DNA from: Salinarchaeum sp. Harcht-Bsk1
GTDB lineage: Archaea; Halobacteriota; Halobacteria; Halobacteriales; Salinarchaeaceae
Length of the DNA: 64,000 bases
Direction of reading: 5' to 3'
Assembly: GCF_000403645.1 (NCBI RefSeq)
Contig: NC_021313.1
Span: 744,001 to 808,000, forward strand
In this document: piece after piece, positions 1 to 61,668 of the stretch
How positions within the stretch are numbered: the first letter of the stretch is position 1
Layout of the letters: each line of letters starts with the position of its first letter
Notes under the pieces: model-generated
Databases searched by the model: none
What the model was told of the DNA's origin: nothing
The model's input: the letters and a program-made list of their open reading frames with translations, nothing else
Translations under genes and position numbers: made by a program

Positions 1-1
1 G

Positions 2-1339
2 TTCGTGCTCGCGGCCGTCGCTGGCGCCGTCCACCTCGGTCTCGGCGCGGGGTTCGAGGGTGCCCTGCTGATCGCCCTCTCCGTCCTGGTCGTCTCCTGT
101 CCCTGCGCACTGGGACTCGCGACGCCGCTCGCGGTCGCCCGCGGCGTCCGGGAATCCCTGGCGGACGGGGTCGTCGTGACGGACGTCTCCACGTTCGAGG
201 CCGCCCACGAGGCCGACGTGGTCGCCTTCGACAAGACCGGGACGCTCACGACCGCCGAGATGCAGGTCCACGAGGTCGCGAGCAGCGACGACGTCGAGGA
301 GGCGACCCTCCTCTCGCGCGCCGCAGCCCTCGAACAGTACGCCGATCACCCGGTCGCCGCGGCGATCGTCGAGGCCGCTGACGGCCCCGTGGACACCGTC
401 GATCAGTTCGAACGCGTCCCCGGAAGCGGCGTCGGCGGCATGATCGTCGCCACACCCGACGGCGGTGCGCGAGCGGCGACCGGGGAACCGGGGACGACCG
501 ACGAGGCGACAGTAGGAATCGAGGTCCTCGTCGGTCGACTCGGTCTCTTCGAGGAGCGCGGCTGGTCGATTCCGGACGCGTTCGCCGATCGCGCCGAGTC
601 GGCCCGCGCCGCCGGGAACGTCCCCGTGCTCGTCGGCTGGAACGGGCGCGTCGAAGGGGTGATCGTCGCCGGGGACGAGCCCAGGACGGAGTGGGAGCGC
701 GTCGTCGAGGACCTCGCCGCGGAGCGCCGGGTCGTCGTGCTCACCGGCGACGACGCCTCGACAGAGCGCTTCGACGAGCACGCCGGCGTCGACGAGGTGT
801 ACGCCGGCCTCCCGCCGGAGGGCAAGACGGAGGTCGTCCGTCGGCTGCAGGCCCAGGAGACCGTCGCGATGGTCGGCGACGGGGTCAACGACGCACCGGC
901 GCTCGCTGCAGCGGACGTGGCAATCGCGCTCGACCACACTGCACTCGCCGCGGACGCCGCCGGAGCGGTCGTTACGACCGACGACCTGCGCGCCGTCCCG
1001 CGGATCTTCGAGCGCACCCGGGCGACGAACGGCCGGATCAAGCAGAACCTCGGCTGGGCGTTCCTGTACAACGCCATCGCCCTCCCGCTCGCGGTCGCAG
1101 GGCTGCTGAACCCGCTGTTCGCCGCCGTCGCCATGGCGTCGAGCAGTCTGCTCGTGGTCGCGAACTCCTCGCGTGCGCTGGTCGAGACCTCCTCGAGAAC
1201 GCTGCCCGAGAACGATCGCGACGGCGAGCATGCAGGGCACGACGTCGAATGGGACGGCAAGCACGGGGAGCGGGACGACTCATCCGGGGAGCTGATGGAG
1301 CCGGATCGCGAACCCGAGCCAGAGGTGCAATCCGAATGA
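2..1339 (+). CDS. copA: Copper-translocating P1B-type ATPase, C-terminal part (cut by window edge)
   Basis: This is the C-terminal 445 residues of a heavy-metal P-type ATPase. The frame is open to the window edge, so the N-terminal metal-binding and first membrane segments lie outside. Visible in order are the intramembrane Cu(I) motif SCPCALG, the phosphorylation motif DKTGT, the HP motif in YADHPVAAA, the ATP-hinge motif GDGVNDAP and a final membrane pair with a Ser-rich MASSS segment. CPC plus the Asn/Ser-rich last helices fit the Cu(I)-exporting subclass P1B-1. It ends in a His/Asp/Glu-rich tail of about 45 residues, which could bind metal or simply be a halophilic acidic tail. The stop overlaps the next start as ATGA, so the two genes are probably translationally coupled. 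The family is certain, Cu specificity likely. Confidence 0.92.
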   Translation, partial: FVLAAVAGAVHLGLGAGFEGALLIALSVLVVSCPCALGLATPLAVARGVRESLADGVVVTDVSTFEAAHEADVVAFDKTGTLTTAEMQVHEVASSDDVEEATLLSRAAALEQYADHPVAAAIVEAADGPVDTVDQFERVPGSGVGGMIVATPDGGARAATGEPGTTDEATVGIEVLVGRLGLFEERGWSIPDAFADRAESARAAGNVPVLVGWNGRVEGVIVAGDEPRTEWERVVEDLAAERRVVVLTGDDASTERFDEHAGVDEVYAGLPPEGKTEVVRRLQAQETVAMVGDGVNDAPALAAADVAIALDHTALAADAAGAVVTTDDLRAVPRIFERTRATNGRIKQNLGWAFLYNAIALPLAVAGLLNPLFAAVAMASSSLLVVANSSRALVETSSRTLPENDRDGEHAGHDVEWDGKHGERDDSSGELMEPDREPEPEVQSE

Positions 1340-7570: not shown

Positions 7571-9073
7571 TCAGGTCTGGAGCTGCGTCGCCAGGACGTC
7601 GTCCACGACTGAGACGAACTCGTCCGTCGAATCCGGCGGGATAGTCGCCCCCGCGGCGACCGTGTGACCGCCGCCGCTCCCGTCGACGGCGGACGCTGCC
7701 GTCGCCATGGCCTCGGAGAGGTCGACGCCGCGCCGGACGAGTCCGCCGGTCGCTCGGGCCGAGACCTTCACTTCGTCGCCGTCCTCGGCGAAGGCGACGA
7801 TCGGGATCGACGGATCGACGCCGTCGGCGCCGACGGCCATCCCGGCGACGATGCCGACGATCGTCGCCGGAATCTCGCTGCCGGCGTCGAACCACTGGCA
7901 GTGGGACTCGATCGTCACGCCGTGGTCCTCGACCCACCGCACGCCGCGGGAGAGGTTGCGCCGGTGCTCGGCCAGTAGATCGGTTGCCTCCTCGAGTGCA
8001 CCGTCGCGGTCGCCGAGCAGCACGGCGAGGCCGACCGCCGAGCGCTCGTAGCGAGCGGTCGCGTTGAGCAGGGTCGCGAACTCGCTGGCGTCCCGGAGCT
8101 GCGTCGCTGGTTCCTCGCCGGAGAGGGTGTAGGCGGTGCCGACCATCTCGTCGATGCGCTCGGCCGGGACGCCTCGCTGGATGGCACGCTGGCAGAGTCC
8201 GCTGGCCACGGTCTGGCGCTCCTCGCCGGTGAGTTCTGCCCACCGTCGCCACTCGCCGTCGGTGCGGAGTTTCAGGTCGAGTCCGTCCAGGAATCGTGCG
8301 GCGGCGTTCCGGTCGGTCGCGACGCCGGGAACCCTGATCTCGTCGGCGTGGGCGAGCAGCTCGGGGAGCGGTTTGGTCTGCGTGCCGTACGCCCCGAGGT
8401 CCGTCTCGGTTGTCAGGACCCCGGCCGCCTCGCCCTCGGCGGCGATCGCGACGTTCGCGCCGACGAGTTCGCCGTCCTCGCGCTGTCGGTCGCCGACCGC
8501 GCCGACGATAGCGAGCGCCGCGAGGTCGCGGTTCCGCGGATCGGGGTCGCTGCCGGGCTGGATCGCGTGCTCGGGGCCGAGTGCCGCTGGCGGGTCGCGC
8601 TCTGCGATGGCGCGGGCGACGGCGTACGTCGCCCCCGCCCCGGAGCACTCACGGGCGCCGTCCAGCCCGACCAGTAGCGGATTGACGTGGTAGGGCGCGT
8701 CGGCGTACTCCGCCGTCGCTGGCGCGCCCGCCGGGACCGCATCGGGCGACAGCGGCTGGTGATGATCCGCGACGATCGTGGCCTCGGGGTCGAGATGGGC
8801 GTACACGTCGTCGAGCTGGCCGCTCCCGAAGTCTGTCAGGAAGACGACGTCCTCGCGACCGGACGCGAGGCGCTGGATCGTCGCCTCGTCGAGCTGGTCG
8901 GCGAACTGCACGTCGTGGGGGATCCCGGCACGCTCGAGCGCCGCCGCACCGACCGCCGCGCTGGCCAGCCCGTCCGCGTCGGCGTGAGAGGCCAACAGGA
9001 CGTGATCGGCCGCGGCCAGCCGCTCGGCTGCGCGGTTCGCGCGGTCGGTCAGCGCCGGAATCGGCCCGGTCAT
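7571..9073 (-). CDS. RecJ-like DHH family exonuclease/phosphoesterase
   Basis: A 500-residue DHH-superfamily protein. It shows SHADADG (about residue 30, motif I), TDFGSGQ (about 80), the diagnostic VADHHQP (about 103) and the DHHA1 motif GGGH close to the C-terminus. These residues bind the two catalytic metals. Length and the DHH-DHHA1 layout match archaeal RecJ-like proteins, related to the replisome-associated GAN nuclease, which digest single-stranded DNA or RNA. No membrane or signal segment is present. It stands alone between two signalling genes. Nuclease polarity and substrate cannot be judged from sequence. Confidence 0.88.
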   Translation of the reverse strand: MTGPIPALTDRANRAAERLAAADHVLLASHADADGLASAAVGAAALERAGIPHDVQFADQLDEATIQRLASGREDVVFLTDFGSGQLDDVYAHLDPEATIVADHHQPLSPDAVPAGAPATAEYADAPYHVNPLLVGLDGARECSGAGATYAVARAIAERDPPAALGPEHAIQPGSDPDPRNRDLAALAIVGAVGDRQREDGELVGANVAIAAEGEAAGVLTTETDLGAYGTQTKPLPELLAHADEIRVPGVATDRNAAARFLDGLDLKLRTDGEWRRWAELTGEERQTVASGLCQRAIQRGVPAERIDEMVGTAYTLSGEEPATQLRDASEFATLLNATARYERSAVGLAVLLGDRDGALEEATDLLAEHRRNLSRGVRWVEDHGVTIESHCQWFDAGSEIPATIVGIVAGMAVGADGVDPSIPIVAFAEDGDEVKVSARATGGLVRRGVDLSEAMATAASAVDGSGGGHTVAAGATIPPDSTDEFVSVVDDVLATQLQT

Positions 9074-17171: not shown

Positions 17172-17834
17172 ATGCCAATGCCGAGACACACCCACTGCAC
17201 CGACCACGCGCACAGCACGGACGACGAGGGGCGGACCAGCGACGCGCCCGCGGGCAGCGAGGGCGACGGTATCACGCGACGGCGCGTCCTCCACGGTGCT
17301 GGGGCAGTCGCCGTCGCCGGCCTCGCGGGCTGCATCGGCGGCGACGGCGGTGGCGACGGCGACGACGCACCGGCGGCGATCACGGTTCCCGACGGCGCGA
17401 CCTGCGACGTCTGTGGCATGGTGATCGTCCAGCACCCCGGGCCGACGTCCCTGATCTTCTACGAGGACGAGCAGCCCGCGGGCCACGACAATCCTGCGCG
17501 GTTCGACAGCACCTGGGAAGCCTTCCAGTTCGACTTCGAGCGCTCGGGCTGGTCGCGCCAGGCCTTCTACGTCACCGACTACTCCGCGGTCGACTACGAG
17601 ATCCGGAGCGACGACGGCCAGCAACTCATCTCCCGGCACGCGGCGGCCGGCGACTTCGCCGACGCGAACGACGTCACGTTCGTCGTCGGTTCGGAGGTCC
17701 TGGGCACGATGGGCCGGGACCTGATCGCGTTCTCCGAGGAGAGCGACGCCGAGTCGTTCGCCGACGAGTACGGCGGCGACCTGGGGACGATCGACGACGT
17801 GACGCCGGAGCTGATCTCGTCGCTCGGGATGTGA
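17172..17834 (+). CDS. nosL: NosL-family copper lipoprotein
   Basis: A 220-residue protein starting at ATG 17172; a second ATG lies six bases on. It has a Tat signal with ITRRRVLHGAGAVAVAGLAGC, the Cys being a lipobox candidate at about residue 54. The mature domain starts with the NosL copper motif CDVCGM (about 77-82), which binds Cu(I) through Cys and Met, and ends with the family region FADEYGG. NosL delivers copper to nitrous-oxide reductase. It precedes nosD by seven bases and opens the apparent nosL-D-F-Y unit. A sequence resembling a ribosome-binding site (GGCGGAG) lies about 9 nt upstream. Confidence 0.93.
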   Translation: MPMPRHTHCTDHAHSTDDEGRTSDAPAGSEGDGITRRRVLHGAGAVAVAGLAGCIGGDGGGDGDDAPAAITVPDGATCDVCGMVIVQHPGPTSLIFYEDEQPAGHDNPARFDSTWEAFQFDFERSGWSRQAFYVTDYSAVDYEIRSDDGQQLISRHAAAGDFADANDVTFVVGSEVLGTMGRDLIAFSEESDAESFADEYGGDLGTIDDVTPELISSLGM

Positions 17835-17841
17835 CCGCTGG

Positions 17842-19767
17842 ATGATCGGCCGACTCCTCGCACTCGCGGTGGTCGGCGTCCTCGTCCTGTTGAGCTTCTC
17901 GCTCGTCGTCCCGATCGGCGGGAGCCAGCCGCCCGATGCCGCGGCCTTCGGGGACACCTTCGAACTCGGCCTCACCGACACGACGGTCCGGGAGGCCGAG
18001 GAGCGCGGGTACGCGATCCCGCGCGTCCAGGTCTACTACTCCGGCTACCAGTACGTGGTCGGGTTCAACGGGCTCGAGGCGTTCGTCGCCGAACAGGACC
18101 GAACCGGCCACAGCAGGCAGTTCGGCCGACCCGTCGAGATCTTCGTCACCGACTTCGGGAACGCCAATCCATCGCTCACCGACGACGGCTTCCTGCAGAC
18201 CGAGGACACGCCGAACTTCGTGTCGGCGACAGGCACACACGTCGTCGTCGATAGCGAGGCACGCCTGCCGAGTGGCCCCGTCGCCGTGCCCTTCGACGAT
18301 CGCGACGCGGCCGAGCAGTTCGCCGACCAGTACGGCGGGCGAGTGATCGACTGGGAGGACCTCCCTGACCACGTCAGTCCCCAGCAAGCGCTCACCCGCG
18401 AGCGCTTCCAGCGCGACGTTCGGGAACGATCTGCGTGGGCGAACGCGAGTTCCAGGGACGCCGAGCAGCTTCGCGATCGCCCGACGTCGATCGTCGTCGG
18501 TGAGGACGTTCCGACGCTCGAGGCCGCGGTCGGAGCGGCGCCGTCGAACACGACGATCGAACTGCCCGCTGGCACCTACGAGACCGACGGCCTCGTCGTG
18601 AACCGGTCGGTCACGATCGAGGGGCAGGGCGCGGCGACGCAGCTTCACGGCGACGGCAACGGCTCCGTCCTCGCCTTCACCGCGCCGCGAACAGGGCTCG
18701 TGAACCTGTCCATCGACGGCGTCGGCCCCGTCGGCAGCCGGGGCACGACCGTGAACGGCTCCGAACCCGAGGACATCGGCTGGTCGGAGCGGATCGAACT
18801 CGCCTACGGACGCGGGGACGCCGCCGTCAAACTGGTCGACGCCAACGGCTCGCTGGTCGCCGACGTCCGGATCGAGTCGCCGTCCTCGGGCGTGATCGTG
18901 ACCGACAGCGCCGGTGCGACGCTCCGCGGACTGAACGTCACCATCACGCGAGGCGTCGACGACGGGTTCATGGGCGTCGTCGGGATGTACGACCCGATCG
19001 TCGTCGAGGACAGCCGGTTCCGGGGTGGTCGCGACGGCGTCTACACCCACCGCGCCGACGGCATCGTCGTCCGCGACAGCGAGTTCCGGGACGGCCGCTT
19101 CGGCGTCCACGAGATGTACACCTCGAACGCACTGGTCACGAACAACACGGCCCGAAACGTGCAGATCGGCGTCATCGTCATGACGCACCCGGTCGGAAAC
19201 CTGATCGTGGGCAACGACGTGCGATCCTCCAGGGTCGGCATCTCGACGGCGGGGTCGAACGCCTACTACGCCGAGAACGTCCTCGTCGACAACGAGCGTG
19301 GCATCGACGTGCTCGGCTACCAGTCGCTGATCGAGCGGAACACGATCGTTCGGAACGGGGCCGGTTTCCGGACGAGCCTCGGTCCGCCGACGAACCTCGT
19401 CACCGCGAACGACGTGGTAGCTAACGAGCAGGCGAGCAGTTCGAGCCAGGGCGTCCTCCGCGTGTGGACGGTCCGCGGCGCGGGGAACTTCTGGGGACCG
19501 ATGCCGAGCGCCGACGACGACGGCGACGGCCACTACGACCGCACGTTCCGGCCGACGGGCAGCGTCGACGGACAGATCCACGACGCCAACGGCGCCTGGA
19601 CGCTCGCACGCTCGCCGGCGTTCCAGCTCGTCCGGAGCGTCCAGGACAACGTACCGGGGCTCCGCTCCGGCGGCGTCGTGGACACCGCGCCGCGCACCGC
19701 GCCGGCTCGCCCTGACGTCCTCGCCGCAGCGCTGAATCGGACGGCCACGACGGAGGGATCGACGTGA
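17842..19767 (+). CDS. nosD: NosD-like copper-assembly protein with N-terminal NosL-like domain
   Basis: A 641-residue exported protein with an N-terminal hydrophobic segment (residues 1-24). Residues about 30-190 resemble NosL: FGRPVEIFVTDFG and FADQYGG correspond to VTDY and FADEYGG of the preceding gene. This part contains no Cys, so the CxxCGM copper site is absent. Residues about 205-600 form the NosD/CASH right-handed beta-helix, with repeating motifs such as GVYTHRADGIVVRDSEF and NTARNVQIGVIV. NosD acts outside the cytoplasm with NosFY in making the copper site of NosZ. Its stop overlaps nosF by four bases. Confidence 0.92.
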   Translation: MIGRLLALAVVGVLVLLSFSLVVPIGGSQPPDAAAFGDTFELGLTDTTVREAEERGYAIPRVQVYYSGYQYVVGFNGLEAFVAEQDRTGHSRQFGRPVEIFVTDFGNANPSLTDDGFLQTEDTPNFVSATGTHVVVDSEARLPSGPVAVPFDDRDAAEQFADQYGGRVIDWEDLPDHVSPQQALTRERFQRDVRERSAWANASSRDAEQLRDRPTSIVVGEDVPTLEAAVGAAPSNTTIELPAGTYETDGLVVNRSVTIEGQGAATQLHGDGNGSVLAFTAPRTGLVNLSIDGVGPVGSRGTTVNGSEPEDIGWSERIELAYGRGDAAVKLVDANGSLVADVRIESPSSGVIVTDSAGATLRGLNVTITRGVDDGFMGVVGMYDPIVVEDSRFRGGRDGVYTHRADGIVVRDSEFRDGRFGVHEMYTSNALVTNNTARNVQIGVIVMTHPVGNLIVGNDVRSSRVGISTAGSNAYYAENVLVDNERGIDVLGYQSLIERNTIVRNGAGFRTSLGPPTNLVTANDVVANEQASSSSQGVLRVWTVRGAGNFWGPMPSADDDGDGHYDRTFRPTGSVDGQIHDANGAWTLARSPAFQLVRSVQDNVPGLRSGGVVDTAPRTAPARPDVLAAALNRTATTEGST

Positions 19768-20588
19768 GCGCCGACGACGATGGAACCACGATGAACCCCG
19801 AGACAGACGACGAGCGGAGTACCGAGCGATCGCCCAGCGACGCTGGCGACGACGACTCGACGCTGTCCCTTCGGGAGGTCTCCTTCGCGTTCGGGTCGGT
19901 GACCGTCCTCGAGGACGCGACGCTCGACCTCGACGCCGGGACGCTGACCGCGCTCGTGGGGCCGAACGGCAGCGGGAAGACGACCGTCCTCGAACTTCTG
20001 GCGGGCCTCCGGTCACCGAACTCGGGGTCGGTCTCGCGCCCCGGGGGCACGGCGCGGTCGGTCGCCTACCTGCCACAGACGCCCCAGTTCCGGAGCGGCT
20101 TCACCGCGAGGGAGACGCTCTCCTTCTACATGGACCTCGTCGACGACGAGCGGTCGCCGACGGACCTGCTCGAGCGGGTTGGTCTGGAGGGCGCCGCGGA
20201 TCGCCGGGTCGAGGCGCTCTCCGGCGGGATGACCAGATTGCTCGGGGTCGCGCAGGCGCTCGTCGGCGATCCGCCGGTCGTCGTCCTCGACGAGCCGACG
20301 AGCGGCCTCGATCCCGACGTCGCGGACCACATCTTCGCCACGGTCGAGGCGATCGCCAGGGACGGGCGAACCGTCGTCATCGCGAGCCACGACCTCGAAG
20401 CGATCGAGGAAACCGCGGATCGCGTCGTGACGCTGGTCGACGGCAGATTCGTTCAGGACGGGGCACCCGCAGACGTCGTCGAAGCGACCGGCGCATCGAC
20501 GCTTCGTGCCGCCTTCTCCGACGCGGTACAGGGCGCCGAGCGCAAAGCTGTGCAACTCGACGCGCCACCCACGGGAGGTGATTCGTGA
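19764..20588 (+). CDS. nosF: ABC transporter ATP-binding protein NosF
   Basis: A 274-residue ABC ATPase starting at the GTG that overlaps the nosD stop (GTGA). Walker A is GPNGSGKTT (about residue 71), the Q-loop is in YLPQTPQF, the signature is LSGGMTRL and Walker B is VVVLDEPTSGLDP, followed by the H-loop in IASHDLEA. The first 35 residues are an acidic tail specific to this protein. Position between nosD and nosY identifies it as NosF, the ATPase of the NosDFY complex that energises assembly of the NosZ copper centre. Confidence 0.93.
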   Translation: MSADDDGTTMNPETDDERSTERSPSDAGDDDSTLSLREVSFAFGSVTVLEDATLDLDAGTLTALVGPNGSGKTTVLELLAGLRSPNSGSVSRPGGTARSVAYLPQTPQFRSGFTARETLSFYMDLVDDERSPTDLLERVGLEGAADRRVEALSGGMTRLLGVAQALVGDPPVVVLDEPTSGLDPDVADHIFATVEAIARDGRTVVIASHDLEAIEETADRVVTLVDGRFVQDGAPADVVEATGASTLRAAFSDAVQGAERKAVQLDAPPTGGDS

Positions 20589-21415
20589 TGGGGCCCGTCG
20601 ACCGCGTCTTCGTCGTCGTCGATCGCGAACTCCGCACGCTGGTCCGGAACCGGGCGCTCGTCGCCGTGGCCGTCGCGTTCTTCGCGGTCGTCGTCGGGCT
20701 CGGCGCGCTCTCCCGGGACGCGGCGGGCGGCTACGTCTCCCTGACATACGACCTGCTGCTCGTAGTGGAGGTGCTCGTCCCCACGATCGCTTTCGCGTTC
20801 GTCTTTCGATCGATCCGCGGCGACGACGAACGGGGCGAACTCGACGTGATCCGGACCTACCCGATCACCCGACTGGAGTACGTCCTCGGCGTGTTCGTCG
20901 GGCGCGTGCTCGGCCTCCTCGTGGTCGTGCTCGCGGCCTTCGGCATCGCCGGCGCGCTCGCCAGCGGCAGCGGCGGCGCACCGCAGACGTTCCTCGCGAC
21001 CCACGACGCCGGGGACACGGTGCTCGTGTACGTGCGATTCGTCCTGCTTACCGCGATCTACACGCTCGTCGTGGCCGCGCTCGCTCTCGCCGTCTCCGCG
21101 GGGACGCGGACGACGCGAGGCGCACTCGCCGCGGCGATCGGCGGCGTGCTCGTGATCGCGATCGGACTGGACCTCGCGTTGCTGACGCTGGTGTCGAGCG
21201 GCGCGATCGGCGGCAACGCGATCGCGCTCTTCGAGGGGCTGAGCCCGGCGAGCGCGTTCCGCGGGCTCGTCTTCGAACTCGCGCTCGGGCCGGCGCTCGC
21301 CTCGGAGCCGGGCGACGGGATGGCCTCGCCGCTCGTCGCCAGCCTGTCGCTGCTCGTGTGGCTCGCACTCGGACTCGGGATGGCGACGGTCGCGGTCTGG
21401 CAGGAGTCGGCCTGA
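20588..21415 (+). CDS. nosY: ABC transporter permease NosY
   Basis: A 275-residue membrane protein with six hydrophobic segments (about 20-40, 55-75, 105-130, 150-175, 185-205, 240-265). The cytoplasmic loop RGDDERGELDVIRTYPITR is typical of ABC-2/NosY permeases. The ATG at 20588 overlaps the nosF TGA; an alternative GTG lies one codon upstream. It forms the membrane part of NosDFY. It is the last recognisable nos gene. No nosZ, nosR or nosX-like gene follows in the window. Confidence 0.92.
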   Translation: MGPVDRVFVVVDRELRTLVRNRALVAVAVAFFAVVVGLGALSRDAAGGYVSLTYDLLLVVEVLVPTIAFAFVFRSIRGDDERGELDVIRTYPITRLEYVLGVFVGRVLGLLVVVLAAFGIAGALASGSGGAPQTFLATHDAGDTVLVYVRFVLLTAIYTLVVAALALAVSAGTRTTRGALAAAIGGVLVIAIGLDLALLTLVSSGAIGGNAIALFEGLSPASAFRGLVFELALGPALASEPGDGMASPLVASLSLLVWLALGLGMATVAVWQESA

Positions 21416-21517: not shown

Positions 21518-22150
21518 ATGAGCGACGATTCCGACCAGCTGCTCGTGTACGCCGACTACGTCTGCCCGTTCTGCTACCTCGGCCGCGAGTCGCTGGCACA
21601 GTACCAGGACGACCGCGTGGAACCTCTGTCCGTCGCGTGGCACCCCTTCGACCTCCGATCCCAGAAGCGGGGCCCCGACGGCGAAATCGACGACAGCGTC
21701 GACGACGGGAAGGACGACGCCTACTTCGACACGGTCCGCGACAACGTCGCCCGGCTCCGGGACCAGTACGATGCCGACCAGATGCTCGGCATCGACGAGG
21801 TGCCCGACGTCGACTCCCTCGACGCCCAGGTCGCGTCGCTGTTCGTCCAGCGCGAGTACCCCGAGGAGTGGCCGGCCTTCGACGACGCACTGTATCGGGC
21901 ACTCTGGGAGGGGGGCGAGCCGATCGACGACCCAGACGTGCTTGCAGACCTCGCCGAGGACGTCGGGGTCGATGGCGAGGAAGTTCGAGACGCTATCGAA
22001 GACGACGAACGCCGGGCCGAGGTGTTCGAGCAGTTCGAGGCCGCCACGCAGGAGGGCGTGACGGGGGTCCCGACGTTCGCGTACGAGGGGTATGCCGCAC
22101 GCGGTGCGGTCCCACCCGAGCAGCTCCGCCGACTCGTCGAAGGGGAGTAA
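21518..22150 (+). CDS. DsbA-family (FrnE-like) thiol oxidoreductase, cytoplasmic
   Basis: A 210-residue thioredoxin-fold protein with an active-site CPFC in YADYVCPFCYLGRE (residues 16-19), a helical insertion domain (about 65-160) and the cis-Pro loop GVTGVPTF near residue 183. There is no signal peptide, so it acts in the cytoplasm like FrnE/HCCA-isomerase relatives. It lies about 100 bp after nosY on the same strand. A role in copper-protein thiol chemistry is possible but only inferred from position. Confidence 0.9.
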   Translation: MSDDSDQLLVYADYVCPFCYLGRESLAQYQDDRVEPLSVAWHPFDLRSQKRGPDGEIDDSVDDGKDDAYFDTVRDNVARLRDQYDADQMLGIDEVPDVDSLDAQVASLFVQREYPEEWPAFDDALYRALWEGGEPIDDPDVLADLAEDVGVDGEEVRDAIEDDERRAEVFEQFEAATQEGVTGVPTFAYEGYAARGAVPPEQLRRLVEGE

Positions 22151-22198: not shown

Positions 22199-23182
22199 CT
22201 ATCGTCCGTAGAACGAATCCGGACCGTGGGCGTCCTGCCAGGCGAACGCGTAGAGATGGCGAGCGACGACGCGCTCGAGCTGTCGGCCGTCCTCGCTCTC
22301 CCCGGTGGCGGGATCCCAGGTAGTACCGTCGCCGCGGAGGCCACCGTCGCGGCGCTCGACGGAGAATCCGGGATCCAGAAAGGCGTGGAGGCGACCGTCC
22401 GCGGCGACCACGATGATCGACTCGCTGCCGACCGAATCGCGGAGTACACCGTCCGCGTCCTCGACGACCGGAAGCGGGTAGCCGACAGCTACGTCGCCGC
22501 GGTCGATACCAATGACGGGCGTCTTGGGCCCGAAATCGCTCCGATCCCACGACCGCTCGGTACCTTCGCCACGCATGGCCCGGAGTCCGAAGTCGTCGGC
22601 GAGGTGGTAGCCGCGGTAGCGTTTCGACTCGTACGTCGTTCGAAGCGCCTCCGCCGGATCGCCCTGGACCCTGTGGGGTTGCAGGACCTCCCCGTCGGGG
22701 TGCTCCTCGAGGAACTCGCCGACCGGCATCACCGCGACGGAGAGCGCGTCGAGCGTCGTCCCCTCGAGGTCGCCAGCGATCGCCTCGCCGGTCGTCTGGC
22801 GCCACTCGCTCTCCGTCTCGCGGTCGTACATGACGAGCGCGTCGTCGACGAGCACGCCGGAGACGCCGAACGTGAGGGTTCGATCGCCGACGCGACGGTC
22901 GTAGACGGCGCCGCTGGCACAGATCGGACACCAGGTGACCGCGATCGGAACGGCCGATCCACCGGTGCCGCTCCCGGCGTCGACGGCGTCGTGATCGGCC
23001 ACCCCGCTGTGCACGTCGTTGACGATTTCGTGCCCGTCGAGGATCCGGGTCGGATAGGCTCGCGGGGGATCGCCGTCGACGACGAACGCCTCGTCGGTGG
23101 GATCGCCGTGGTGGACGGACGCGAACGTCGGGTCGTCGATACTCCGGATCGCGTCGCGAGGAAGGACGTCGGTGCGGGTCAT
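22199..23182 (-). CDS. DUF3179 domain protein
   Basis: A 327-residue protein recognisable as DUF3179 by the N-terminal VLPRDAIRSIDDP, AYPTRILDGHEIVND, the Cys pair in TWCPICASG (about residues 84-87), FGVSGVLVDDALVMYDRETES and a second half with RYRGYHLADDFGL. There is no signal peptide or membrane helix. Function is unknown; the CPxC motif suggests metal binding or redox chemistry. It lies between the nos unit and the halocyanin fusion, on the same strand as the latter. Confidence 0.88.
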   Translation of the reverse strand: MTRTDVLPRDAIRSIDDPTFASVHHGDPTDEAFVVDGDPPRAYPTRILDGHEIVNDVHSGVADHDAVDAGSGTGGSAVPIAVTWCPICASGAVYDRRVGDRTLTFGVSGVLVDDALVMYDRETESEWRQTTGEAIAGDLEGTTLDALSVAVMPVGEFLEEHPDGEVLQPHRVQGDPAEALRTTYESKRYRGYHLADDFGLRAMRGEGTERSWDRSDFGPKTPVIGIDRGDVAVGYPLPVVEDADGVLRDSVGSESIIVVAADGRLHAFLDPGFSVERRDGGLRGDGTTWDPATGESEDGRQLERVVARHLYAFAWQDAHGPDSFYGR

Positions 23183-23372: not shown

Positions 23373-25469
23373 CTACGGTGGCGAGTCGCTCTCCCCGGGG
23401 ACGCCCCGGCCCTGGTAGAAGTCGCCCGCCCAGTTCCCAACCCAGATGTCCTGGTTCGCGAGGTAGAGCGCCTCCTCCGTGTAGAACCTGTCGTCGGTGA
23501 CGGTCCACTCGTCGGCCGCGGGATCGTACTCGACCGCCCCGTTGTAGACCGCGGCCTGGCCGAACTCGCCACCCGCCGCCGGTGGGAGGGGCAGCGTGTG
23601 CTCGGCGCTCTCGTCGCGAGAGGGCGGCCGCTCGGCGCGCTGGAGTTCGCCGCGGTTGAACGTCTGGTCGAAGAAGCGCGCGAACGTCTCCTGGACGTCG
23701 GAGCGCTCGAGCAGGACGTCGGCAGCGTTGAGGCCGCCGGTGAGGTCCCCCGCGTCGCGAGCGGTGATCGTGTACGTCGCGTCGTCGGTGCCGGAGGCGA
23801 AGGTGCCGGCGTTCTCGTCCCACAGCTCCTCTATGAGGAAGTCGACGACGCGATCGGCCGTGTCGGCGTGGTCGACGCCGTCCAACTGGGACGCCCAGAG
23901 CAGTCCCTGGGCGACGATGCCCTGCGTGGCGGCCTGATTCGCTGCGCCATTCTCGACCCGACCGTCGTCGGTGAGAGTGTCCTCGATCACGGACGCGAGG
24001 TCGTTGGCGTACTGCGCAGCCGCGTTGCGCTGCGCCTCGCCACCAGCCTGCGGGCCGTAGTACCCGATCGCAGCGAGCATGAGTCCGACCGAACGCGTGG
24101 ACTCCTGCTCGACGATCTCCGCCGGCGTGAAGAGATCCATGGTGGTCGCGGCCACGCCGTCGGTGATCTCCTGGATGCCGACGGGTGGATCGAAGACGGC
24201 GTCGGCGCCCTCCGCTTTCGGCAGGAGCGGTCGCGGGTTCTCGTAGCCGAACCAGCCGTTCTGAGCGAGGCTGGTCATATCGGAGAGGAACCACACCATC
24301 GCGGCGTGGTGGTGGGGTCGCCGGGAATCGTCCACGATCTCACCCGCACTGGGGCGGTACTGCGAGAGGAACTCCCAGGAGTCGCCGTGGGTCAACGCGC
24401 CGTTCTCGCGGGAGCCACCCACCAGGATGGCGGCGTTGATCCCGACCTGTGCGAGCGTGCTCAGCAGCTGGGCCCGGAACTTCGGCGCCATCTCCGTCGG
24501 GAGGACGTCGAAGTGGGCCTGGAAGTTCTTCGCCCAGGTGACGCCCTTGAGGTGCGTCCATGCCACCGAGGAGGGGCTCACGACGCCGGAGGACTGGCTC
24601 TTGTCCCATCCCAGCGTGCTCGCGTCGGGCCGACCAGTGTCGTCCTCCAGGACCGGCTCCTGGGTGAAGTGGGGATCGCCCTCGGTGAAGGCGGCCAGGC
24701 TCAGGTTCGGGTTCGCGATCGGCGGCCGGTCGACGTCGGCCGCTTCGAGCATCGCAGGCATGCGCTGGTCCTGCAGTTCCTCCATCTGGTCGTTCAGCGG
24801 GAACGGGACGCCGTTGCCGCTCATCGCGATGTTCGTACTCATGTTGTACAGTGAGTACCAGTAGGCGTCCATCGACGCGGCCTGGAACCCGTACGCGCTG
24901 GCGCCGTTCTCGCCGGCACCCTCCTCGGGCTCCCCGACCACGACGGCACCCTTCATCCCCATGTCGCGGTGAGGGTTGCAGTAGTAGGTCACGATGCCCG
25001 TATCGTCGAACCTCTGGGAGAAGGTCGTTCCCGCGTCGCCCGTCGGATCGCCGCTCCGGAACTCGGCGCCGGACTCGGCGACGACGTTGTGGCTACCGCC
25101 GTCACCGGTCCACTCCCAGACGACGTCCGTACCTGGGTCGACCCAGACCGCGGGCGGCGCGAAGCCAAAGGCGCCGCCGTTGGCCTCGGCGCCGACCTGA
25201 ATCGTGACGCTGCTCGCCCCGCGCTCGTCGACGGTGGTCCCGTCGTAGTTGTCGGTGTCCGCGAGCCAGCCGCCGAAGTCGAACTCGGCACCGTCGCCGC
25301 TCCCGAACCCGCTATCGCCGTCGGTGGTGCCACCGCCAGCGGAGCCGTCGACGCTGTTCGTTCCGTTGCCGGAGTCGTCGCCGTCGTTCGAGTCGCCGGT
25401 GCAGCCGGCGATCGCCGCGACCGCAGCTGCGCCGCCGATCTGCAGGAATCGCCGTCGTTCGTGGTTCAT
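23373..25469 (-). CDS. Tat-exported lipoprotein: halocyanin domain fused to a large unknown domain
   Basis: A 698-residue protein with a Tat/lipoprotein signal (RRRFLQIGG and lipobox IAGC, about residues 5-23) and an Asp/Gly/Ser-rich linker to about 70. The halocyanin domain (about 75-180) has copper ligands in GSHNVV and in CNPHRDMGM. From about 190 to the end runs a roughly 500-residue, mainly helical, soluble region with aromatic-rich motifs (MDAYWYSLYNM, HHHAAMVWFLSDM, WVGNWAGDFY) and no membrane helix. I do not recognise this region. The fusion suggests a secreted, lipid-anchored protein that receives or passes electrons through its own copper domain. It may form an operon with the DUF3179 gene downstream (190-bp gap). 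Confidence 0.85.
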   Translation of the reverse strand: MNHERRRFLQIGGAAAVAAIAGCTGDSNDGDDSGNGTNSVDGSAGGGTTDGDSGFGSGDGAEFDFGGWLADTDNYDGTTVDERGASSVTIQVGAEANGGAFGFAPPAVWVDPGTDVVWEWTGDGGSHNVVAESGAEFRSGDPTGDAGTTFSQRFDDTGIVTYYCNPHRDMGMKGAVVVGEPEEGAGENGASAYGFQAASMDAYWYSLYNMSTNIAMSGNGVPFPLNDQMEELQDQRMPAMLEAADVDRPPIANPNLSLAAFTEGDPHFTQEPVLEDDTGRPDASTLGWDKSQSSGVVSPSSVAWTHLKGVTWAKNFQAHFDVLPTEMAPKFRAQLLSTLAQVGINAAILVGGSRENGALTHGDSWEFLSQYRPSAGEIVDDSRRPHHHAAMVWFLSDMTSLAQNGWFGYENPRPLLPKAEGADAVFDPPVGIQEITDGVAATTMDLFTPAEIVEQESTRSVGLMLAAIGYYGPQAGGEAQRNAAAQYANDLASVIEDTLTDDGRVENGAANQAATQGIVAQGLLWASQLDGVDHADTADRVVDFLIEELWDENAGTFASGTDDATYTITARDAGDLTGGLNAADVLLERSDVQETFARFFDQTFNRGELQRAERPPSRDESAEHTLPLPPAAGGEFGQAAVYNGAVEYDPAADEWTVTDDRFYTEEALYLANQDIWVGNWAGDFYQGRGVPGESDSPP

Positions 25470-26142: not shown

Positions 26143-26532
26143 ATGACTGACGGCAGCGGAGGCACCGTGGACGCCCCGGAGCGCCTCGAGGTCTGGTGCG
26201 CCGGTGAGCACTGGTGTCCGGTCACCACCACCGCGACCCTGATCGGGAAGAAGTGGCACCCGGTGATCGTCCACCGGCTGCTCGACGCCGGCCCCAGCGG
26301 CTTCAGCGAGCTCCAGAACCACGTCGACGGCATCTCGAGCAAGGTGCTCTCCGAGAGCCTCGAAGACCTCGAGGAGCGTTCCCTCGTCGATCGGACCGTC
26401 GTCAGCGAGAAGCCGTTCCGGGTGGAGTACGAACTGACCGAGCACGGCGCATCGCTCGAACCGGTGATCGAAGCGATGCGCGAGTGGGGAAACGAGCACC
26501 TCCGACCGCCGGCCGAGGACGAGCGCGTCTAA
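26143..26532 (+). CDS. HxlR-family winged-helix transcriptional regulator
   Basis: A 129-residue protein with the HxlR core: the N-terminal Cys/Trp region WCAGEHWCPVTTTATLIGKKWHP, the recognition helix in FSELQNHVDGISSKVLSESL and the wing with VEYELTEHG. Two cysteines about six residues apart (WCAGEHWC) could sense redox or electrophiles as in other HxlR/YodB proteins, which is inference. It is co-oriented with the small protein upstream. An inverted repeat 250 bp upstream is a candidate operator. Confidence 0.9.
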   Translation: MTDGSGGTVDAPERLEVWCAGEHWCPVTTTATLIGKKWHPVIVHRLLDAGPSGFSELQNHVDGISSKVLSESLEDLEERSLVDRTVVSEKPFRVEYELTEHGASLEPVIEAMREWGNEHLRPPAEDERV

Positions 26533-60573: not shown

Positions 60574-61668
60574 ATGGAATTCCCAGACAGCTCCCGACGG
60601 GGGATCATGACGGCACTCGGTGCTGGCGCAGCACTCGGACTGGCAGGGTGTATTTCCACGCCGGCTGACGGCGAAGTGAGCGCGAACGAGAGCGATCCCG
60701 TGACCCAGCAGGAGGAAGAGTCGCTCGACGCCGCGAAGGAGACCGACCTCGACCGCATCGCCGCGGACCCCGAGGACATCCCGGACCCGGTGGACTGGTC
60801 CACCCCGCGCAGGCACGAGATCAGCATGACGACCACCGAACGGACCGCAGAGATCGAACCCGGCGTCACGTTCGACTACATGACCTTCGACGATCGGGTG
60901 CCGGGGCCGATGGTCCGGGTCCGCCGCGGGGACACGGTGCACCTGACCCTCGAGAACGCCGAGGAGAACGCCATGCCGCACAACGTCGACTTCCACGCGG
61001 TCTACGGCCCCGGCGGCGGTGCGGACGACACCACCATCAGCCCGGGTGAGACCGCCGAGATCGAGTTCACGGCGATGTACCCCGGCGTCCACGTATACCA
61101 CTGCGCGGTCCCGAACATGGACCACCACATCAGCGCCGGGATGTACGGCGCGATCCTGGTCGAGCCGGAGGACGGCCTCCCCGAGGTCGACCGCGAGCTG
61201 TACTTCGGACAGAACGAGATCTACACGAACGGTGCGCCGGGCGAAGAGGGTCACCACAGCTTCGATTACGAGGCGATGAAGGCCGAGGAGCCGACCTACG
61301 TGACCCTCAACGGCGAAGCGTACGCATTCACCGGGGACGGGTACGGTCCCGTCACCGTGGACAAGGGCGAGCGCGTCCGGATCTTCCACGCCAGCGGCGG
61401 ACCCAACCTCACCAGCTCCTGGCACGCGATCGGGAACGTCTGGGAGACGTACTACCCCAACGGCGCGCTGGCGTCCGATCCCGACCACTACGTCGAGACG
61501 GGGCCCGTCGTGCCAGGCTCCGTCGGCGCGGCCGTGATCGACACGCCGGTGCCCGGTCCTATCAAGCTCGTCGACCACGCGCTCTCCCGCGTCGTCCACC
61601 GGGGGATGCTCGGAGTGATCCAGGTCGAAGGCGAACCCGAACCCGAGATCTTCAATCCCGATCCCTGA
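60574..61668 (+). CDS. nirK: Copper-containing nitrite reductase
   Basis: A 364-residue Tat-exported lipoprotein-like enzyme (RRGIMTALGAGAALGLAGC, lipobox Cys about residue 26) that reduces nitrite to NO. Two cupredoxin domains are present. Type 1 and type 2 copper ligands are visible in MPHNVDFHAVYG (type 1 His, catalytic Asp and type 2 His), YHCAVPNMDHHISAGMYG (type 2 His, type 1 Cys, His and Met) and VDHALSR (type 2 His). Electron donors could be the halocyanins in this window. It is divergent from dinB and stands alone, without norB or other denitrification enzymes beside it. Confidence 0.96.
   Translation: MEFPDSSRRGIMTALGAGAALGLAGCISTPADGEVSANESDPVTQQEEESLDAAKETDLDRIAADPEDIPDPVDWSTPRRHEISMTTTERTAEIEPGVTFDYMTFDDRVPGPMVRVRRGDTVHLTLENAEENAMPHNVDFHAVYGPGGGADDTTISPGETAEIEFTAMYPGVHVYHCAVPNMDHHISAGMYGAILVEPEDGLPEVDRELYFGQNEIYTNGAPGEEGHHSFDYEAMKAEEPTYVTLNGEAYAFTGDGYGPVTVDKGERVRIFHASGGPNLTSSWHAIGNVWETYYPNGALASDPDHYVETGPVVPGSVGAAVIDTPVPGPIKLVDHALSRVVHRGMLGVIQVEGEPEPEIFNPDP

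Follow-up and report, generated by a model that had tools for sequence, protein, structure and literature searches.

A haloarchaeal lipoprotein joining a halocyanin domain to a predicted (alpha/alpha)6 barrel, with exchange of copper domains among its relatives

Introduction

The window examined in this study, a 64,000-nucleotide stretch of the Salinarchaeum sp. Harcht-Bsk1 genome, encodes a 698-residue protein in which a blue copper domain is followed by a long helical region, raising the question of what that region does with an electron carrier on its own chain. A first-pass annotation made from the letters had described the product as a halocyanin domain joined to an unrecognized helical domain in a Tat lipoprotein, and took the built-in carrier to imply that the helical domain is a redox enzyme or sensor. 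We asked how far each part of that description holds, using profile searches, structure prediction, domain phylogenies and comparison of the loci in which relatives of the gene are found.

Gene and protein anatomy

The reading frame begins with ATG and stays open for 698 codons (Table 1). Its twin-arginine motif is followed by an IAGC lipobox that is present in most homologs, with the Pfam TAT model scoring slightly below its cut-off (E 0.017). An NCBIfam search placed the copper domain in TIGR03102 at 150.1 bits (curated cut-off 93.8), a Pfam search matched PF00127 in the N-terminal part (E 2.6e-13), and the type 1 copper ligand set is complete, as the annotation had stated. The 513 residues that follow have no Pfam or NCBIfam match and no credible match among PDB sequences, where the best E values were 0.11 with a single sequence and 0.39 with a profile. 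The PII-like PDB entries behind the first value and PDB 23wo behind the second were dropped as chance, as were weak Pfam matches among family members (Kelch_4, silk, clathrin link). Taken together, the sequence supports an exported lipoprotein in which a halocyanin is joined to a family not yet described, much as the annotation had proposed. The only cysteines in the protein are Cys23 and Cys164.

The genome of this organism has 17 Copper-bind domain matches in all, and tandem double-halocyanin proteins were seen in two of the genomes sampled (G000:C1:740506-741180 and G023:C1:344927-345613).

Table 1. Positions of the barrel gene, its parts and its neighbours in the window.
Feature	Position	Strand	Evidence
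CopA-type P1B ATPase, CPCALG and HMA-type motif; extends upstream past the window	1-1339	+	
nosL-nosD-nosF-nosY cluster	17172..21415	+	NosL, NosF-type ABC ATPase and NosY-type permease matches
DsbA-like thiol oxidoreductase	21518..22150	+	PF01323
DUF3179 protein (WCPIC motif), directly downstream of the barrel gene on the same strand	22199..23182	-	PF11376, 187.9 bits
Whole gene: Tat lipoprotein, halocyanin domain and (alpha/alpha)6 barrel, 698 aa	23373..25469	-	ORF, full-length homologs
(alpha/alpha)6 barrel domain, residues 186-698, outside Pfam/NCBIfam families	23376..24914	-	Profile searches, AlphaFold, Foldseek
D572, D575, N581, Q610, R611: second invariant polar stretch (RDAGDxTGGxNA, LQRAxRP)	23637..23756	-	Alignment
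H306, H319, R384, H388: polar, inner helices, invariant in 31 haloarchaeal barrels	24306..24554	-	Alignment and predicted helix positions
Halocyanin domain, residues 66-178, type 1 copper ligands H127, C164, H167, M172	24936..25274	-	TIGR03102, PF00127
Tat signal RRRFL (residues 5-9) and lipobox AGC, predicted lipidation site Cys23	25401..25469	-	Sequence motif; lipobox recurs in homologs
HxlR-type regulator, divergent	26143..26532	+	PF01638
nirK, copper nitrite reductase, intact, 364 aa, Tat lipoprotein-like	60574-61668	+	TIGR02376 above cut-off

Predicted fold of the C-terminal domain

Two AlphaFold2 models of the domain, one from an alignment of 26 sequences (pLDDT 79.5, pTM 0.88) and one with a different family member as lead sequence (pLDDT 80.2, pTM 0.87), agree in their succession of helix pairs. 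Foldseek searches of the PDB with both models returned N-acylglucosamine, cellobiose and glucose 2-epimerases and GH8/GH76/GH88-type barrels at a probability of 1.00, with a TM score of at most 0.57 on the target among the sugar enzymes and about 9% identity; GH105-type barrels are also among the best structural neighbours, and complement C4/C5 fragments are found among the matches. With two models agreeing on these matches, we predict that the domain is a six-hairpin (alpha/alpha)6 toroid of the epimerase/glycosidase type. The label "unrecognized" therefore stands for sequence families but not for the fold. To our knowledge, proteins with this kind of barrel serve as sugar epimerases, as hydrolases or as scaffolds and not as redox enzymes, so the fold search that the annotation had suggested led to a fold not known for redox chemistry.

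Distribution of the barrel family

The barrel region is present in about 20 of the 292 haloarchaeal genomes sampled, 60-77% conserved over its whole length, and full-length homologs were found at 30 named haloarchaeal loci, so the frame did not arise by chance and belongs to a genuine family. Distant relatives that lack a copper domain are found in another class of Halobacteriota (genome G324) and in a Leisingera plasmid operon, and PHROGs and viral contigs held no relatives of the barrel. Search matches at loci L022 and L023 were discarded as spurious frames or an unrelated protein. Copies with frameshifts or stops, or with assembly errors, were seen at loci L038, L048, L055 and L057 and in genomes G096 and G290, and with several copies broken, loss of the gene seems common. 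A literature search found no paper on the cupredoxin-barrel architecture; the barrel family has not been described before, and the fold predicted for it is a known one.

Exchange of copper domains

Barrels of this family carry at least three types of cupredoxin, or none. The window's protein has a halocyanin (type A), most relatives have a plastocyanin-like domain (type B; about 50 bits, under the TIGR03102 cut-off), two Halorussus proteins have an amicyanin-like domain, and from several haloarchaeal barrels the copper domain is missing. The fused cupredoxins retain complete electron-transfer type 1 ligand sets. We considered that the copper-free barrels might have a cupredoxin gene next to them, and dropped the idea as none was found in the DNA examined.

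On the barrel tree a single clade is rejected for both type A (p-AU 2e-16) and type B (p-AU 7e-83), and sister barrels carry different types, as at L049 (B) and L014 (A) with support 100/100 and at L028 and L004 with support 91/89. On the cupredoxin tree the type B fused domains form one clade (99/97), parted from the type A fused domains by free-standing cupredoxins. This conflict between the trees indicates that copper domains have been swapped repeatedly between barrels. The most distant barrels lack the copper domain, suggesting that the barrel alone is probably ancestral. That blue-copper domains were recruited time and again speaks for electron transfer being important to the barrel. At L049 a barrel gene joined to the other cupredoxin type has a free-standing halocyanin (7981-8553, minus strand) two genes away, which may have supplied a domain for exchange at the locus.

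Conserved residues of the barrel

Across 31 haloarchaeal barrels some 40 positions hold an invariant polar or aromatic residue, and many of the polar ones (H306, K308, R384, H388, R459, N511, Q516, D572 and D575) lie in the N-terminal parts of predicted inner helices. These parts form the active-site region in such barrels, and the models would place the invariant residues there. The first-pass annotation had pointed to conserved-looking histidine and aromatic clusters and to a search for metal-binding residues in homologs. Of the "HHH" cluster only the third histidine, H388, is invariant in haloarchaea, and W676 and W680 of WVGNWAGDFY are conserved. H306, H319 and H388 are invariant in the 31 haloarchaeal barrels, but H306 and H388 are lost in G047, G324 and the Leisingera plasmid protein (33%, 27% and 24% identity, respectively). 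Because of these losses, the comparison does not support a metal site common to all barrels of the family. No cysteine occurs in residues 186-698 and homologs' barrels have 0-2, so a heme c or Fe-S enzyme can be ruled out. Copper-free haloarchaeal barrels retain the same pocket residues as the fused ones, and no residues separating the two groups were found in the haloarchaeal alignment.

Genomic context

As the annotation had listed, profile matches identify DUF3179, a DsbA-like protein and nosLDFY as neighbours, to which an HxlR-type regulator can be added. DUF3179 is a thiol/selenol redox family with a CxxC/UxxC motif that also occurs as a UxxC selenoprotein (PMC9312934, PMC13188914). It is present in 20 of 21 barrel carriers and in 137 of 271 other genomes (51%; p 4e-5), and lies less than 21 kb from the barrel gene in 11 carriers where 0.5 would be expected; these p values are inflated because genomes and islands share ancestry, yet the pattern spans several genera. 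The single other sampled genome of the window's genus (G260) has neither gene, and Halobacterium and Haloarcula relatives have both. DUF3179 is thus a conserved partner of the barrel gene.

Relatives of the HxlR regulator, 68-74% identical, lie near the barrel gene at 5 other loci, and YjeF_N, peroxiredoxin, TauE/SafE, DsrE and CoA-disulfide-reductase-like genes are recurrent neighbours as well. These genes recur together with HxlR, DUF3179 and Pyr_redox as an island at L028, L029, L033, L037, L038, L051 and other loci. A SoxB-like protein, below cut-off, sits in the island at L037 (7327-9129), and in G047, whose barrel is copper-free, a Tat-exported DUF7405/Dyp-type-peroxidase-like protein is encoded two genes away from it (L066:8770-10104, minus strand). 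The one bacterial example, on the Leisingera plasmid, runs MerR-type metal regulator, CcdA, barrel, P1B heavy-metal ATPase, CcdA. In the haloarchaeal and the Leisingera setting alike, thiol redox in the envelope goes together with traffic of metal or sulfur.

With its CopA-type ATPase, nosLDFY, nirK and several halocyanins, the window reads as a copper-themed region. Among about 30 loci this is the only one with nosLDFY beside the barrel gene. A search of the genome for nosZ gave only short cupredoxin-like matches (42 and 35 bits), which leaves nosLDFY as orphan maturation genes, perhaps for a different copper or sulfur client.

Function of the barrel protein

We favour a membrane-anchored, extracytoplasmic and modular redox protein of copper/thiol homeostasis, to which we give a probability of roughly 40%. 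The central pocket of the barrel would bind a substrate or partner, and the tethered, exchangeable type 1 copper domain would carry electrons between whatever is bound there and the respiratory chain, supplying or removing them as part of an envelope metal-sulfur pathway with DUF3179 and thiol-redox proteins, and not of denitrification as such. The fold found with both models, the three cupredoxin types, the tree conflict, the DUF3179 linkage, the thiol/redox neighbours and the Leisingera operon all point in this direction. Against it are a fold type that is not redox, a barrel free of cysteine whose invariant histidines are largely lost in distant relatives, copper-free barrels with the same pocket residues and nothing to separate them from the fused ones, and a bacterial operon known from one example. 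The redox setting that the annotation had read from the electron carrier is borne out by the cupredoxin types and the thiol/redox partners, but with the sugar-type fold, the missing cysteines and the lost histidines it does not follow that the helical domain must itself be a redox enzyme or sensor.

Two other explanations seem to us unlikely to a similar degree. The barrel could act on sugars, as an epimerase, a lyase or a hydrolase-like enzyme working on cell-surface or imported glycans, with the cupredoxin as a tether or a copper-binding accessory outside the reaction; its closest structures are sugar 2-epimerases and glycosidase-type barrels, and the invariant Trp, Tyr, Asp, Arg, Gln and His on the modelled inner helices resemble a sugar pocket, but the TM scores and identity are low, no Pfam match ties it to these families, its neighbours are redox and sulfur genes and not glycan genes, and the repeated recruitment of blue copper would be left unexplained. 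A copper-handling role, in which the cupredoxin stores copper or passes it to NirK, oxidases or NosL-dependent enzymes while the barrel is a docking scaffold, would suit the copper-rich window with its CopA-type ATPase at the left edge and the bacterial operon with its P1B ATPase and metal-type MerR regulator. However, the fused domains have complete electron-transfer ligands, unlike chaperone sites, copper-free barrels exist, and the nosLDFY linkage is not conserved.

We consider the remaining two explanations improbable. The nos neighbours imply an electron donor to NirK or NosZ, and nosLDFY does adjoin the gene with nirK in the same window, but the genome has no nosZ and nos genes are not neighbours at other loci. 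The co-occurrence with nirK and nosZ that the first-pass annotation had suggested looking for did not appear either: nosZ is not enriched in carriers (5/21 against 10/22; p 0.20), and nirK is slightly commoner in them (12/21 against 7/22) at a level that is not significant (p 0.13). On these grounds a link to denitrification is not supported. A non-catalytic, protein-binding toroid of the envelope, alpha/alpha like complement C3d/C4d and with the cupredoxin as an adhesion or positioning module, would agree with the C4/C5 fragments among the Foldseek matches and with pocket residues that are not conserved in distant relatives; the roughly 40 invariant polar and aromatic residues exceed what is expected of a scaffold, and the swapped domains are always redox-competent cupredoxins.

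Most of what is known of the six-hairpin barrel fold concerns sugar chemistry. A bolder and rather doubtful version of the copper/thiol redox reading would make this family a new class of envelope metalloenzyme, in which such a barrel has turned copper/sulfur oxidoreductase, linked to respiration by interchangeable blue-copper domains and with DUF3179 as its thiol/selenol partner. That relatives have the same barrel refitted with different copper domains, or with none, suggests that there is a redox or metal-handling component of the cell surface which has yet to be studied. One barrel with three cupredoxin types is also an unusually clear case of a plug-in electron carrier, making modular redox wiring testable, and the uncharacterized DUF3179 gains a strong genomic partner, pointing to a common envelope thiol/copper pathway in haloarchaea.

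Comparison with known systems

Compared to halocyanins (TIGR03102), the lipid-anchored blue copper proteins of haloarchaea, the protein has the full domain, all ligands and the lipobox, but adds a 513-residue barrel, and its relatives bear other cupredoxin types at the same place. In YyaL/DUF255 proteins (Thioredox_DsbH) a small N-terminal thioredoxin redox domain precedes a six-hairpin barrel, and PDB 7tkv, of this type, is a weak Foldseek match. The layout of a small redox domain in front of a six-hairpin barrel is shared, but here the redox domain is a cupredoxin and not a thioredoxin with CxxC, the protein is exported, and no sequence relation was detected. The N-acylglucosamine/cellobiose 2-epimerase superfamily (PDB 3gt5, 7d5g, 8h1l) resembles the barrel in predicted fold, toroid size and polar and aromatic residues on the inner helices, and differs from it in sequence (9% identity, no Pfam/NCBIfam membership above cut-off), in export and in the joined cupredoxins, with sugar activity not demonstrated for the barrel. 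Tethered NirK, the copper nitrite reductases linked to a redox partner (PMC9358711), likewise hold an electron carrier on one chain with its presumed partner, which in the protein described here is a helical barrel and not NirK.
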